Source: Candidatus Gastranaerophilales bacterium (GTDB lineage Bacteria > Cyanobacteriota > Vampirovibrionia > Gastranaerophilales > Gastranaerophilaceae). Taken from it: a stretch of DNA of 64,000 nucleotides. Of this stretch, positions 42,608 to 51,199 are shown in pieces. A program made the translations under genes and the position numbers. The notes beneath the pieces are model-generated. The model was not told the origin of the DNA. It did no database searches and worked only from the letters and a program-made list of their open reading frames with translations. The DNA lies in assembly GCA_944324175.1 (NCBI GenBank), contig CALUVH010000009.1:1-64000 (forward strand), read 5' to 3'. Position 1 is the stretch's first letter. The number at the start of each line of letters is the position of its first letter.

Positions 42608-43645
42608 TTAACCGAATGTTTTAAATGTTGATTCAACGTTTTTCTCGATAACTTTAGTTACAGCATCCATTTCAGTAGATATTGCATCTTGTTCTGTATC
42701 AAGTTGTTTTAATCTCAATTCTAAGTTTTTATCCTCAGCTTGTACGATCTCAATTTTTGCGTTAATTTCTTCAATTGCTTGATCGTATTGATACTTTTCA
42801 TACTCATACTGGTTCATCGCATCTTCGTATGCAGCTTGGTCTGTAGTAGTATTTGTTGTTAATGAGTAAGTAATTAATTGACCTGTAGCATCCGGAATTG
42901 AAATGTTGATATAACGGCCTGTTGAATCCTTTTCAACTTTACAATCTGTGACAGCCTTAACTTCTTCTGTCTTAGTTTCACTTCCAATTGTGTAACAAGG
43001 GATGTTAGACAATGAAGAGTTATTAGTGTTATAATCAGCATTATCAACATCTGATTTTTTGTAGAAGTATGGAGTCCATTCACCGGTTGTGGTGTCTTGT
43101 ACATACCTTACATACCACTCAGTAGCCTGACCACCATTATATTTGTTATTTAACAGTGTGATGTACTCTTTTTCTTCTTCCATCAAACCATCAATTTGAT
43201 CTGACTCTAATTGACTTAAATATGCATCATTTTTAATAAAATCCGCACTTGGTTTAGTACCTGCAGTACTCATTACACGCAACTCATTTGCACCTATGTA
43301 ATATTTACCGCCATTTCTGGTAACAATACTAGTCGCAGCAGATACAGGTGAAAAATCATCAGTCCATTGTTTTAAGTAACTAACTGTATATGATCCATCT
43401 GTATTAGCAATCATTCCGGTAATAGTGTTAGTCAATGCTCCATCTGTAAATGAGTAAACTGTTTTCGTATAATTATCGACAGAAGGAGGAGTCGGCACTG
43501 ACATACCTAACAAATCACTATAGTAATTAGCAGATTGGTTAGACAAAGCAGTTCTTTGCTGGTTGATCTGTTGACCTTCGAATTCAAGATTGGTCTTCCT
43601 TGCTGTCAAGCCTAAAAATCTTGCTTGTGATGCTGCCATTCCCAT
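42608..43645 (-). CDS. Protein with conserved ASQAR N-terminus and coiled-coil C-terminus, unknown function
   Basis: 345 residues. The N-terminus MGMAASQARFLGLTARKTN leads into a Q-rich helix (to about 50). The middle (about 60-250) is Ser/Thr/Tyr-rich and looks like beta structure. The C-terminal 70 residues are a charged coiled coil ending in TKVIEKNVESTFKTFG. Both ends match the protein at 49285-50958, while the middles do not match. There is no classical signal peptide or membrane segment. Conserved helical ends with a variable centre recall filament subunits such as flagellins, but no homology is claimed. AAAGGAAGA precedes the start, and a direct-repeat promoter is upstream. Confidence 0.82.
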   Translation of the reverse strand: MGMAASQARFLGLTARKTNLEFEGQQINQQRTALSNQSANYYSDLLGMSVPTPPSVDNYTKTVYSFTDGALTNTITGMIANTDGSYTVSYLKQWTDDFSPVSAATSIVTRNGGKYYIGANELRVMSTAGTKPSADFIKNDAYLSQLESDQIDGLMEEEKEYITLLNNKYNGGQATEWYVRYVQDTTTGEWTPYFYKKSDVDNADYNTNNSSLSNIPCYTIGSETKTEEVKAVTDCKVEKDSTGRYINISIPDATGQLITYSLTTNTTTDQAAYEDAMNQYEYEKYQYDQAIEEINAKIEIVQAEDKNLELRLKQLDTEQDAISTEMDAVTKVIEKNVESTFKTFG

Positions 43646-44313: not shown

Positions 44314-45840
44314 TTAAGAATAAACAAACGGAGGTCCGTTTTTTACTTCAAATAATATATTATCTGCCATTGTCTTAAGTTGTTCTTTTGGCTTGCCTTT
44401 CCTTACCTGATTATAAAACTCCTCCATTAATGGCTGAATTGCAGCATCTTTTTTAGATTTAAAATTACGCAACTCAGTAGATACAAGACGTTTTTGTAAA
44501 TCAAGCTCTGTTTGCGCATTAATTTTTTTTACTTGCACTTCCTTAATTGCATCACCAGTAAGCTTTCCTCCGTAAGATATAGCTGCAGCACCGGTCATTC
44601 CAAAAAACAACTGTCTAAATTGCTTATTTTTAGTATCTAACAGCCAGTTATAAAAATATGCACGGTAATCATCAACAAAAGATGAAAATGCAACCTTTGG
44701 AGTGCCATCCCCACCAATATTCGGATTCACTTTTATTGTTGATGTATTTATTTTAATTACTGTATCTTTGATAAATTTTTCAATATCTTCTTGCTTGTTC
44801 CATTTAACACCTTTCATTAAACGTCTAATCGTTTCTTCTGAAGCATCCATGGATAAAAACATATTTTCTAAATTCTGCGCATCAACTTCACGCGTTTGCT
44901 CATTTGAACTTTTTACCAATTTGGATATAATTTTTTCACTTTCAGCTATGCAATCTTTTATATACCCTCTACTTTTACTCAAATTCTTCAATGATAAATA
45001 TGTAAGTCCTATTATTCCGCCGACAGTTGCTGCTCCCATTAAAAAATATAAGAACGGATTCATTTTCTCATCTTTTCTGTCTTTAACTTCATTTGTATGA
45101 TTTTTAATTCCTAAAAACGGTATATGAACAGACTTACCAAAATTTGTTAAAATTCCCTCTGGTTCCTCTTGGATATATTTATTTAATATTTTGGTCTTTT
45201 CAGATAATGTACTTCTTATTATTTGAATTTTTCCTGCAAAGGACTGTGTTTCAACATCTATAAGTTTTTCTTGCAAATCTTTTTGAATATCTGCTTCACG
45301 CTTTTTCACCCAAATATCTTTAAATCCATCCAAAAAAGTTTTACCCATAAATGCGGCTGCAGTAAGCGCAAAAACTCCTGTTCCAGCTAATATCGTTTTT
45401 GGAGTCGGGTTGGTAACAATCTGAAAAACAGCTTGAGAAATTTCACTATTTACCGTAACAATACGAGTAAGAGTAGGTATCCACTTTTCTTTTAAATGAT
45501 TTTTCATCAAATCAGCAGCAACTTTTGTATTGTGTTGAATAAACATGGACAGACCTGCAATTACTCCCATTACACCAAGCGATACTGCACTTATCGGTAT
45601 TAAGCTTTTTTCTTTTTGATTTTTATTCTCACCGAGAAGTGACGGGAGTTTAACTTTGTCAGAGATTATTAATGTATCTACTGTATCATCCAAATTTAAA
45701 ACGTTTTTTTCATAATTGTCTTTGATAAAATTATTTACGAGCACACCTTCTTTAGTGTAACTATTTGTACGCTTTTGGGTAGTAGTCAAATTTCTTTGTT
45801 GTCTAACGGTTTCATTATCTTGAAATGTCGTTACATTCAT
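44314..45840 (-). CDS. Membrane protein of unknown function
   Basis: 508 residues. Clear hydrophobic segments are at about 82-101 (IPISAVSLGVMGVIAGLSMF), about 150-166 (ILAGTGVFALTAAAFMG), about 265-285 (FLYFLMGAATVGGIIGLTYL) and about 410-425. Long charged helices lie between them and could form coiled coils. No signal peptide, ATPase motif or known domain is seen. It begins inside the last codons of the 237-residue gene (26-base overlap in another frame), so the two are translationally linked. It belongs to the run of unknown genes under the DtxR-type regulator. Function unknown. Confidence 0.78.
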   Translation of the reverse strand: MNVTTFQDNETVRQQRNLTTTQKRTNSYTKEGVLVNNFIKDNYEKNVLNLDDTVDTLIISDKVKLPSLLGENKNQKEKSLIPISAVSLGVMGVIAGLSMFIQHNTKVAADLMKNHLKEKWIPTLTRIVTVNSEISQAVFQIVTNPTPKTILAGTGVFALTAAAFMGKTFLDGFKDIWVKKREADIQKDLQEKLIDVETQSFAGKIQIIRSTLSEKTKILNKYIQEEPEGILTNFGKSVHIPFLGIKNHTNEVKDRKDEKMNPFLYFLMGAATVGGIIGLTYLSLKNLSKSRGYIKDCIAESEKIISKLVKSSNEQTREVDAQNLENMFLSMDASEETIRRLMKGVKWNKQEDIEKFIKDTVIKINTSTIKVNPNIGGDGTPKVAFSSFVDDYRAYFYNWLLDTKNKQFRQLFFGMTGAAAISYGGKLTGDAIKEVQVKKINAQTELDLQKRLVSTELRNFKSKKDAAIQPLMEEFYNQVRKGKPKEQLKTMADNILFEVKNGPPFVYS

Positions 45841-46528: not shown

Positions 46529-46655
46529 TAAAAAATCCTCTTTTCAAAGAGGACACTGAAAAAAAGTTCTTGTCGATGGTCAAAAAGCACGTGACCAAAG
46601 CTTTTCTTCGAGTGTTCCGACTATTACGGCTGCGGCTACAGTTGAAGATCTTCAC
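46500..46655 (-). CDS. Possible leader peptide overlapping the start of the 237-residue gene
   Basis: 51 codons from a GTG with AGAGGA six bases upstream at the 5' end of the leader. The product would begin VKIFNCSRSRNSRNTRRK and run out of frame into the first codons of the main gene, ending 29 bases inside it. An overlapping ATG-AAG-TGA (46660-46652) is an alternative two-codon frame at the same site. Its translation would open or close the leader hairpins. There is no protein homology to support it, so the call is speculative. Confidence 0.25.
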   Translation of the reverse strand: MKIFNCSRSRNSRNTRRKALVTCFLTIDKNFFSVSSLKRGFFNAISNYTTE

Positions 46656-46673
46656 TTCATTTCCTCTTTGAAA
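46529..46673 (-). promoter_or_regulatory. Attenuator-like leader with alternative hairpins
   Basis: On the minus strand TCCTCTTT (46553-46546) pairs with AAAGAGGA (46543-46536), is followed by six T and covers the ribosome-binding site of the 237-residue gene. The same TCCTCTTTGAAAA (46553-46541) is also perfectly complementary over 13 bases to TTTTCAAAGAGGA (46674-46662) at the start of the leader. The two pairings exclude each other. Between them are other helices, such as TGAAGATCTTCA, and GGTCA with TGACC. The inverted repeat could also be an inversion site, but no recombinase is near. Confidence 0.55.
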
Positions 46674-46702
46674 ATCGTAAAATAAATCCATACCAGTGTC
46701 AA
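46674..46702 (-). promoter_or_regulatory. Promoter of the 237-residue gene
   Basis: On the minus strand TTGACA (46702-46697) and TACGAT (46679-46674) are 17 bases apart. The predicted transcript starts near 46667, giving a leader of about 140 bases. Confidence 0.65.
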
Positions 46703-46747
46703 TATTTACCAACGAGATGTTAAAATTTATAAAACAACGCTCGGTAG

Positions 46748-47770
46748 TTAATCATTTTTAATGCTACCGTTTCTATATCCAATACCCGCTCGATAACCGG
46801 ATATAAAATACATTAAAGGAAGAACCGGTTCTATCCACTTGAATCCCGATAGTATACCTGCCGTCGCAATATCATCAGCGTGCAATGCTATATCTAAAGT
46901 TTCAGGTTTCCTTTCTGTATAAAGTCCCTTAGCTGACTTTTGTCCAAATATCGGATCTATTATTTTTTTACTCAGGTAATTTGCGATATAACTTCCTCCA
47001 ATTATACCCATTGCAGTTATACCTCCAAGTATCGTAAAAAGATTTTGTATAGGAGTTAGAGGTTTTATAATTTTATATTTTTGTAGCTGCTTTGCTCCAA
47101 ACATTGCTAAAGCTGCTCCAACATTACAAAGACATATATTAGCAAAATATTGATAAAAACCTTCTTTAATTTTATTAGCAGTATTTTTTCTTGAAGAAGT
47201 CCCTGTAAACTTATCTGCCAAAATTCCTCCCAAAATTCCTCCAACAACCGGCACTGCCCCCAAAGCTGATAAACGACCTATCTCTTTAAATTCCTCTTCC
47301 TTTTTACTTACATCAGGCAAAATCACCTCAAATAAATCTTTTTTTGCTTTATTCTGAGGCAATTTTGCTGATAATAAGGCAATATCCTTCAGAGAAAGGT
47401 GAGTGATTTTAGGTTTGGTCAATACATGTAGAAGGTTATTGTCTTGTATAGTTATATCTTGCAAATATTTATCTACTGCTTTACTTTGTCTTAATAAAAC
47501 ATCTTCAATAGACTCACTCTCCATTAATCCGTTAAAGATTTTTCTCCCTCTTATTGTCAATCCTCTTGTACCCAACAAAGTGGCGATAACTGTACTTCCT
47601 ACTATTAAAAAGTTTTTGATACCTCGCTTTTTATCATCATTTCGGTGTCTATAGGTATCAACTATTCCATATATCCCCCCAGTACCCACCAAAAAAGTCG
47701 GCATTTTTTTATTCAATTTATTTAAAATTAGCGGCTGATCTACAAATTTTGCTATTGTTTGAATTTTCAT
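46748..47770 (-). CDS. Membrane protein of unknown function under DtxR-type control
   Basis: 340 residues. Several glycine-rich hydrophobic segments are visible: about 24-40, 51-66 (FLIVGSTVIATLLGTRG), 170-190 (GAVPVVGGILGGILAD), 212-230 and 243-268 (FTILGGITAMGIIGGSYIAN), plus one near the C-terminus. Charged loops separate them. No transporter motif, signal peptide or catalytic residue is recognised. The promoter directly upstream carries a tandem metal-regulator operator, and the DtxR-type gene lies immediately beyond it. A role in metal handling is therefore likely, although the protein resembles no known metal transporter. GAG-type purine sequence before the ATG is weak. Confidence 0.78.
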   Translation of the reverse strand: MKIQTIAKFVDQPLILNKLNKKMPTFLVGTGGIYGIVDTYRHRNDDKKRGIKNFLIVGSTVIATLLGTRGLTIRGRKIFNGLMESESIEDVLLRQSKAVDKYLQDITIQDNNLLHVLTKPKITHLSLKDIALLSAKLPQNKAKKDLFEVILPDVSKKEEEFKEIGRLSALGAVPVVGGILGGILADKFTGTSSRKNTANKIKEGFYQYFANICLCNVGAALAMFGAKQLQKYKIIKPLTPIQNLFTILGGITAMGIIGGSYIANYLSKKIIDPIFGQKSAKGLYTERKPETLDIALHADDIATAGILSGFKWIEPVLPLMYFISGYRAGIGYRNGSIKND

Positions 47771-47847: not shown

Positions 47848-48279
47848 TTACTTACACAATTTCTTATTTATTTTTTCTGCAAACCCCTTATCTTCTTTGG
47901 CATAATCTTTAATAAATGAATATAATAGCAAAAATTTTTCATACAATTCATCAGATAATATATGTTCCATTTTACAAGCATTTTCAGTAGCTTGTTGAGG
48001 TGATAAATTTAAGATTTCTTGAAAAAACGCAGTCATGGAATTATGCCGATCTAAAATTTTTCTAGCCAATCCTTCACCTAACTTGGTCAAAGTAATAGAT
48101 GAGTATGGTGCATAATTTATCAATTTTTTTTCTGACAACAAATTCAAAGCCGCAGTTACTGAAGCTTTTTTTACATTCAAAGCCTCAGAGATTTCAGTAA
48201 CTTTCGCAACCCCTTGCTTCAAAACTTGCTTATAAATTTCTTCTAAATAATCTTCCTGACTGTACGATAATTTTTCCAT
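47848..48279 (-). CDS. DtxR/MntR-family metal-dependent repressor
   Basis: 143 residues from the ATG at 48279; the frame is open 21 codons further up but without a site. An N-terminal winged helix (about 1-65: SQEDYLEEIYK, KVTEISEALNVKKASVTAAL) is followed by the metal-binding dimerisation domain (about 70-143) with DRHNSMTAFF and NACKMEHILSDELYEK. There is no SH3 domain. Metal ligands look mixed: Asp in SQED as in MntR, Cys in ACKMEH as in DtxR. A TACAAT box lies seven bases before the ATG. The operator pair downstream indicates control of the next gene. Confidence 0.9.
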   Translation of the reverse strand: MEKLSYSQEDYLEEIYKQVLKQGVAKVTEISEALNVKKASVTAALNLLSEKKLINYAPYSSITLTKLGEGLARKILDRHNSMTAFFQEILNLSPQQATENACKMEHILSDELYEKFLLLYSFIKDYAKEDKGFAEKINKKLCK

Positions 48280-48286
48280 ACCATTA

Positions 48287-48295
48287 ATTGTAGCA
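48287..48295 (-). promoter_or_regulatory. Extended -10 box for the DtxR-type gene
   Basis: TGCTACAAT on the minus strand ends seven bases before the ATG; no ribosome-binding site. Confidence 0.4.
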
Positions 48296-48398
48296 CAAAA
48301 CAGATACTTTTTAATCTTTTTTGTAACTATAAATTTAAACAATGATAACTAATAAATTTTAAAATGTTAATCTTTCTTAAAATTAATCACAAATAATA

Positions 48399-49284: not shown

Positions 49285-50958
49285 TTATGCATTATATCGT
49301 TTGAAAGATTTTTCTATATTTTTGTCAATTACTGATTTTACGCTATCATACTCAGTTGTCAGTGATGAAATTTCTGTATCTAAATTCTTCATTTTTAAAT
49401 CTATTTCATCTTCTTTACTTGTCAATCGAGCTTTTTGGTTAGTATATTTTGCTTCAGCTTGCGCTATTGCACTATCATCTGATACCTCTTTTATAAATGT
49501 ATTTGTTGAGTAATTACCTTGATAATAATATCCGTCATCACTAATTGATGAAACGTACATCATACCATTTTTTAGCATTTCTTGTAAGTATTCTTGATCT
49601 TTTATCTCAGAATTTTCGCTCCAACCCATTGCACATAATTGGTTGAACAAGGTATCGTAGAATAAGCCTGTTTTAGCATCCTCTTCTGAAACACTTGAAC
49701 CTGCATTAATTCTGTAAATAAATGTTGGATCATCAGTAACAATATTAGAGTTTGATTTCTGACCTATTATAGCATCATAGTTATTTGTACTTGCTTCTTT
49801 ATTCATATATTGAGCATAGTAAGTCAAGAATGTATCTACAACTGAATTCAAATTGATAGCAGTATCTGATCTACTATGTTTTACAACAACAGGACCATGG
49901 TTCCAGAAAGCACCATAAACAAATCCGACATAATCACCTGAGGTAGCTGCATCCTTAACTGTTCCAACACAATTGTAACCACCTGAAGCTTTAGCTTTCT
50001 TTTTCCAGTAAACTCTTGTACCGACAGTATCTAAGTGCATATCTCTTGGATCTTGTCTTCTATTACCATTGTTATCAACAATTTCAGATGGATCATATAG
50101 CTCTTTTGTCTTAATAGTGGCATATTTTAAAGCATTTTCTGTTATAGGGTCTACCGCGAGAACAGAAGCAAATGCTTCATATAAATCGTCTATAAAACCA
50201 CCATCTTGTACTAACATAGTTGCAATCCCTTTTGTAACTGTAGCTGGAGCTCTGCAATTCTTTTGAGCTTGTGCAAAAGCTATATATTGCTCATCATCTT
50301 TCAATAAATCTGCTAAATTAAATGATGTTTGTTGGGAATTAGATACATTATTTGATCCTGCACCAATGTATAACATATCATATGTGCCTTCCATACAACC
50401 AGGATTTAATTCTACTTGTACAGAACCTAAAGCTTCTATTAAGCCTTCCAAATTTGTTTCCACATACTGTGTTGAAATTAAATCTGTACTTCCTAAACCA
50501 GCAGCTTGGTTATAAGTTGTTGATAGAATTGAATCTCTCGTTTTTTTAGATATTACACCAGCTGTAAATAACCCCTCAATAAATTTATTACGCATTTCTT
50601 CACTTGGCATACCGTTCAAACCTTCTTGTGGTACACCTGCAGCCCTTGCTGCCGCTGCAATAGCCGGATCAAGAACTACACGTCCTTGTTGGTTAGTTAT
50701 TAATGTAGGCAAATAATCATTTAATGCTGAAGGTGTCATCAATAAACTGTATGTAAGCGGATTTGATGTATCACCTTTGCCATAAAAATCATAGTATAGT
50801 TGAGTTTGATTTAAGGAATTTTGATATTCATTTGAAATCTCATTCATTTCACGAGAAAGCGCAATTTTTTGGTGTGACAATCTCATAGATTGGTATTCAC
50901 AATCCGCCTTTCGTGATGTTATGGTTAATAATCTTGCTTGTGATGCTGATAAGCCCAT
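49285..50958 (-). CDS. Large paralogue with ASQAR N-terminus and coiled-coil C-terminus, unknown function
   Basis: 557 residues from the ATG at 50958; an in-frame TTG seven codons up is less likely. The N-terminus MGLSASQARLLTITSRKAD and the C-terminus LDTEISSLTTEYDSVKSVID then KNIEKSFKRYNA match the ends of the 42608-43645 protein. The centre (about 60-480) is different and much longer, rich in Asn, Ser, Thr and Tyr, with beta-like character. There is no signal peptide or membrane span. It could be a secreted or surface protein exported by an unrecognised route, or an internal structural protein. It has its own terminator. Confidence 0.82.
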   Translation of the reverse strand: MGLSASQARLLTITSRKADCEYQSMRLSHQKIALSREMNEISNEYQNSLNQTQLYYDFYGKGDTSNPLTYSLLMTPSALNDYLPTLITNQQGRVVLDPAIAAAARAAGVPQEGLNGMPSEEMRNKFIEGLFTAGVISKKTRDSILSTTYNQAAGLGSTDLISTQYVETNLEGLIEALGSVQVELNPGCMEGTYDMLYIGAGSNNVSNSQQTSFNLADLLKDDEQYIAFAQAQKNCRAPATVTKGIATMLVQDGGFIDDLYEAFASVLAVDPITENALKYATIKTKELYDPSEIVDNNGNRRQDPRDMHLDTVGTRVYWKKKAKASGGYNCVGTVKDAATSGDYVGFVYGAFWNHGPVVVKHSRSDTAINLNSVVDTFLTYYAQYMNKEASTNNYDAIIGQKSNSNIVTDDPTFIYRINAGSSVSEEDAKTGLFYDTLFNQLCAMGWSENSEIKDQEYLQEMLKNGMMYVSSISDDGYYYQGNYSTNTFIKEVSDDSAIAQAEAKYTNQKARLTSKEDEIDLKMKNLDTEISSLTTEYDSVKSVIDKNIEKSFKRYNA

Positions 50959-51199
50959 TATCGACCTGAATCCTTTCAAACTTTATATACAAACTTAGTA
51001 ACATTAGTTGAGTATACATGGTCTAGTACGGATTTTATTGGTTAATTCTTTAAGAAATCTCATTCTAATTTTACAATTATTTACAAAACGATTATGATAT
51101 TTTTTACTAACTTTTGTAAACAAAATTCTTTATATCGCAATTTCAAGCATAAAAAATACTTTATATAAGAGTAGTGTAGTTTTAAAAAGGTTATTTGTA

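Follow-up and report, generated by a model that had tools for sequence, protein, structure and literature searches.

The AdoCbl-II cobalamin riboswitches (Rfam family RF01689) were reported from marine sequences as the AdoCbl-variant (PMC2864571). In the env8 hydroxocobalamin riboswitch the aptamer is combined with a hairpin, P13, a kissing loop forms between L5 and L13, and the SD sequence is occluded when ligand is bound (PMC10907184). The kissing loop also stabilises P13 in the Priestia megaterium metE and E. coli btuB riboswitches, favouring an RBS or terminator hairpin, and other cobalamin riboswitch models use aptamer bases (PMC10653944). We found no paper that links the Gastranaerophilales lineage with cobalamin riboswitches.

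The window, which is the whole stretch of 64,000 nucleotides that was analysed, contains on its minus strand a leader running up to the ATG (46528) of gene A (Table 1). By its sequence, this leader belongs to the AdoCbl-II family. A scan of the whole window with cmscan and Rfam 15 gives RF01689 as the sole match, over the full length of the model (1-81), scoring 45.7 bits where the gathering score is 36.5, and in the position and orientation expected relative to gene A. The first-pass annotation had correctly recognised the geometry of an attenuator or riboswitch, and erred in recognising no riboswitch class that matches it: the RF01689 match clears the curated threshold by a wide margin and has the right place and orientation. 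The alignment reveals the helices P4, P5 and P6 and the GGAAA / CCGUAA / GGAA core, and the leader has the L5-L13 kissing loop and downstream P13 hairpin expected of AdoCbl-II, with only three kissing pairs (AGC/GCU). P1 and P2 are weak or missing, and P3 is short, with three pairs. The classical Cobalamin model (RF00174) aligns weakly (46545-46708, 25.4 bits, under the 31.5 cut-off), which does not place the leader in that family. Neither a second RF01689 match nor a separate RF00174 match was found when the genome was searched. A U1A_PIE candidate at 46832-46895 (21.9 bits, far under its threshold) was dismissed as chance. The leader would be expected to bind a cobalamin, and the family name leaves unsettled whether this is AdoCbl, MeCbl or hydroxocobalamin.

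Table 1. Coordinates of the leader elements and operon genes, numbered along the window
Feature	Position	Strand	Remarks
-35 box TTGACA	46697..46702	-	sequence
-10 box TACGAT	46674..46679	-	17-nt spacer from -35; sequence
AdoCbl-II cobalamin riboswitch aptamer	46604..46675	-	cmscan RF01689
5' segment TTTTCAAAGAGGA	46662..46674	-	holds P3 5' strand GAG (46666-46664) and start of conserved core; putative alternative anti-SD partner (helix H3)
Loop L5, UAGCCG	46633..46638	-	AGC (46637-46635) can kiss GCU in L13
P3 3' strand CACUC and GAAGAAAAG	46601..46614	-	5' strand of H4 (anti-P3; continuation of P13)
P13 hairpin UGGUCA-CGUGCUUUU-UGACCA	46577..46597	-	loop L13 at 46591-46583
CUUUUUUUCAGUG	46554..46566	-	3' strand of H4; immediately precedes anti-SD
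Anti-SD UCCUCUUU	46546..46553	-	common to SD hairpin (H2) and putative alternative pairing with 5' segment (H3)
SD arm AAGAGGA (46542-46536) and U6 tract (46535-46530)	46530..46542	-	sequence
Gene A, 237 aa	45815..46528	-	N-terminal CPHGxPxGxCPxC motif, remainder helical
Gene B, 508 aa	44314..45840	-	26-nt overlap with A; helical by prediction, several hydrophobic segments
Gene C, 178 aa	43765..44301	-	third conserved operon gene

Homologous loci are found in Candidatus Gastranaerophilales / Melainabacteria, several of them from gut and rumen samples. RF01689 is carried by 82 of 99 related genomes and gene A, detected with a profile, is found in 70. Cross-matching the two tables places RF01689 directly upstream of 64 of the 69 clear A genes, a count that includes three weaker RF01689 matches; the five A genes without it are those of G061, G064, G067, G077 and G080. 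Two genomes that lack gene A, one from the same genus (G004) and one from the same family (G030), also lack the riboswitch. The gene A motif is present in the next gene for 61 of 112 RF01689 match regions, and the A-B-C operon is the commonest target of the AdoCbl-II riboswitch in the genomes examined. The other targets in relatives, NrdD, MetE (the B12-independent methionine synthase), a TonB receptor and the RNR large chain (one of these is the first gene after RF01689 in L037, L045, L085, L052, L094 and L116), sketch a B12 regulon for the order. These are mostly genes that B12 usually represses, among them those for the anaerobic RNR NrdD, MetE and the TonB receptor, which supports an off response of the operon in the window as well. 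Two less typical neighbours of AdoCbl-II are a porin of the OprB family and a radical SAM protein that carries a domain for B12 binding (L128:1183-2526, L102:1076-2476). The aptamers of L177, L180, L182, L200 and L203 carry an extra hairpin in the P6 region, between the CCGU and GGAA core segments; in L214, upstream of 468, gene A keeps a hairpin before its start and there is no recognisable aptamer core.

Immediately before gene A, UCCUCUU (46553-46547) and AAGAGGA (46542-46536) form a 7-bp stem around a UGAA loop, followed by six T (46535-46530), one A and the ATG. The 13-base complement of the segment TTTTCAAAGAGGA (46674-46662) lies at 46553-46541, the arms being about 108 bp apart. Shuffling the leader 500 times with its dinucleotides preserved produced inverted repeats of at most 11, none of them (0/500) reaching 13; the 13-nt inverted repeat is beyond chance. 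A second and longer complementarity, between CACU(C)GAAGAAAAG (46614-46601) and CUUUUUUUCAGUG (46566-46554), gives the helix H4. The first-pass annotation had described the hairpin with T6 that buries the SD of the 237-residue gene, the 13-base complementarity of an upstream segment, and a promoter TTGACA-17-TACGAT with a leader of about 140 nt, all of which are present in the sequence; H4 is absent from it.

The promoter bears on how much of the repeat is transcribed. TTGAC-16/17/18-TANNNT occurs at the equivalent place in 78 of 94 related leaders, and the -10 box mostly ends 9-14 nt ahead of the GGAAA core. Since the -10 box of the window ends at 46674, the transcript is predicted to start near 46670-46667. 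The RNA would begin at the P3 5' strand or a few bases before it. The repeat's UUUUC end probably lies outside the RNA or barely at its tip, which would leave about 6-9 pairs in the RNA.

We consider it likely that the leader is an AdoCbl-II riboswitch that shuts the A-B-C operon once B12 is abundant inside the cell, and that it does so through competing folds of the P3 strands and the SD. Without ligand, the downstream AGUG-UCCUCUUU would capture both P3 strands: AGUG and the preceding CUUUUUUUC would pair with CACUCGAAGAAAAG (H4), UCCUCUUU would pair with the 5' AAAGAGGA (H3), and the two helices together would leave the SD AAGAGGA free. Ligand binding would let P3 and the four-way core form and P13 dock on the aptamer via the L5-L13 kissing loop; this would exclude H3 and the end of H4, and UCCUCUU would fold onto the SD. 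The SD hairpin with its U6 would block translation and may also act as an intrinsic terminator, ending transcription ahead of the start codon. Ligand binding, the off sign with B12, the level of control (translation or transcription) and the action of H3 in cells are inferred. In energy computations, the nascent RNA, cut off ahead of the SD arm, adopts the H3+H4 fold at every transcript start tried. At full length the on and off folds are separated by a few kcal/mol, a figure that includes no contribution from ligand or kissing loop.

Covariation was assessed in a set of 57 distinct leaders and pairing in a wider parsed set of 94 distinct leaders. P4, P13, L5-L13 and H4 are conserved and covary. 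In the 57 leaders standard pairs occupy 92.9% of the cells, compared with 87.0% after shuffling and no more than 51.5% after sliding the partner, and both sides have changed in 105 cells versus 32; P4 and P13 carry this signal, and all five counted pairs of P13 change on both sides in relatives. The complementarity of L5 and L13 is higher within leaders than between them (0 of 10,000 permutations reach the observed value), and the mean duplex energy of H4 is -8.25 versus -5.53 kcal/mol (sd 0.20; again 0 of 10,000), in tests that take the leaders as they stand, with the relatedness among them retained. The same result, 0 of 10,000, is obtained for H4 in the 22 leaders without a UCCUC anti-SD and for the five-base P3 3' strand alone against the flank of the anti-SD. 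Matched changes of strand and flank are seen in distant leaders (CACU/AGUG, UACUU/AAGUA, AACUU/AAGUU, UGCUC/GGGCA). Part of H4 prolongs P13 outwards and can coexist with P3; CACU/AGUG is the one portion that excludes it. For H3 the energy over the 94 leaders is -8.71 versus -8.03 (0 of 10,000 permutations). Within the leaders without UCCUC, 301 of 10,000 permutations reach the observed value, which is not clearly significant, and under a poorer choice of the SD hairpin these leaders give no H3 signal. The SD hairpin hardly varies, four of its six pairs being invariant in the 57 leaders; in a set of 60 diverse leaders it could be identified in 45, with a U-run after it in 34 of the 45, and about a quarter of the diverse leaders have no clear SD hairpin. 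The comparison of leaders, the check proposed at the outset, supports P4, P13, L5-L13 and H4. Among the pairings originally singled out, H3 stands over all 94 leaders and is weak in the non-UCCUC subset, and the SD hairpin is nearly invariant.

The same riboswitch could also exert its control through P13 and the SD hairpin only, a mechanism put forward for E. coli btuB and env8, with a 5' segment that never pairs with the anti-SD and a 13-nt repeat that is a by-product of the SD-like, purine-rich core. Because the aptamer dictates GAGGAAA and GAGGA often serves as an SD, complementarity to UCCUC comes free; the GAGGA core is conserved for ligand binding, so it may supply part of H3 at no cost. 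The weak H3 signal in the non-UCCUC leaders points in the same direction, as does the computed fold that combines H4 with the SD hairpin, whose stability comes close to that of the on fold (H4+H3). However, H3 beats the permutations over all 94 leaders, and the match reaches past GAGGA in L088 (UGUAAGGA with UCCUUACG) and L056 (AUAAGAGGA with UCCUCUUAU). We regard control without H3 as unlikely. Scarcely probable, by comparison, is that the leader represents a chance match or a non-regulatory relic of a riboswitch. The weak or missing P1/P2 and the three-pair P3 would fit a relic, but the core positions are kept, the synteny with gene A holds in 64 of 69 cases, and the 57 leaders covary.

Two further readings come from the first-pass annotation. 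A GTG frame does begin in the leader, and a ribosome translating it was suggested to select the fold. Yet this frame runs for 1 to 52 codons in 92 leaders, 10 of which stop after one codon; neither its length nor its end is conserved, so that the conserved short frame of a peptide-leader attenuator is not found, and the frame crosses RNA that matches the riboswitch model end to end. A ribosome-driven attenuator is thus highly improbable. The perfect 13-bp inverted repeat, with its arms about 108 bp apart, was alternatively suggested as the possible boundary of an invertible DNA segment, which would mean phase variation. The arms, however, lie inside the RNA switch, which accounts for the repeat; the orientation of aptamer to gene is constant in all leaders examined from related genomes; and within the genus the 5' arm differs outside AGAGGA (ATTTTTATAGAGGA in L048 and L061), which makes the repeat shorter. 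We give inversion hardly any credence, and retain the AdoCbl-II switch with competing P3-strand and SD folds as the preferred reading.

The operon under this switch encodes three uncharacterised proteins. A homologue of B follows A in nearly all loci, often in overlapping frames, and a homologue of C lies downstream of A in about 50 of 60. Searches of A, B and C against Pfam, NCBIfam and PHROGs returned no family above cut-off, only weak coiled-coil-type matches, and profile searches against the PDB found nothing convincing. The AlphaFold models (mean pLDDT 46 for A and 62 for B) are too poor for interpretation, and Foldseek with the gene B model gave no match at E <= 0.001. We found no paralogue of gene A in its own genome and no phage relative. 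By eye, protein B (44314-45840, minus) appears to repeat a module, a hydrophobic hairpin followed by VKK..A..Q..LQ..L, which suggests an internal duplication. Near the operon lies a gene for a DtxR/MntR-family metal-dependent repressor (47848-48342, minus), with an uncharacterised protein encoded between the two (46748-47770, minus). The proteins at 42608-43645 and 49285-50979 (both minus) have similar N-termini, MGMAASQARFLGLTARK and MGLSASQARLLTITSRK; one of them is directly behind gene C and is kept there in closer relatives only.

The sole RNR large subunit found in the genome is the B12-dependent NrdJ (998.5 bits, cut-off 961), and single-family searches of this 97%-complete genome did not find NrdD, a TonB receptor plug or a BtuC-type (FecCD) permease. 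The bacterium seems to need B12 for DNA synthesis, yet to be without the usual importer genes that were searched for. Because of this demand, the failure of the searches to find these importers and the position of the genome's only cobalamin riboswitch before A-B-C, we tentatively put the operon forward as a candidate system for B12 acquisition (uptake or salvage) unlike BtuB-BtuFCD, a role that it may well not have. Against it stand the few relatives that hold both gene A and a TonB receptor, the 97% completeness of the genome, and the scope of the importer searches, which covered the TonB plug and FecCD. Mutual exclusion of A-B-C and TonB receptors was considered and found weakly supported: receptors are rare overall (15 of 99 relatives), and within the family they occur in 6 of 54 genomes with A versus 2 of 6 without. 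The link between riboswitch and operon ties the three proteins to B12 and makes their function directly testable. The switch is ordinary in kind; its target operon is less so, and is the part worth following.

Compared with AdoCbl-II riboswitches as described, the leader in the window has the same core sequence, the same P3-P6 layout, a place upstream of a gene and a score above gathering; it differs in its gut and rumen lineage, its position near the transcript start, its having little or no P1/P2, and its A-B-C operon target. It shares with env8 the aptamer and P13 with an L5-L13 kissing loop, and an SD that is occluded in the bound form, as we propose for the window; in env8, however, the SD lies in the P13 loop, whereas in the window the SD hairpin is an element distinct from P13 and a U6 follows it. 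As in metE and btuB, the kissing loop would stabilise P13 and favour the occluding or terminating hairpin, but the metE antiterminator uses the 3' side of P13, whereas the alternative helices in the window use both P3 strands. The 94 parsed leaders are a natural set for a cobalamin aptamer that hands both P3 strands to its expression platform. Since other cobalamin riboswitch models also draw on aptamer bases (PMC10653944), the riboswitch in the window is a member of a known family whose expression platform is a variant and not a new principle.
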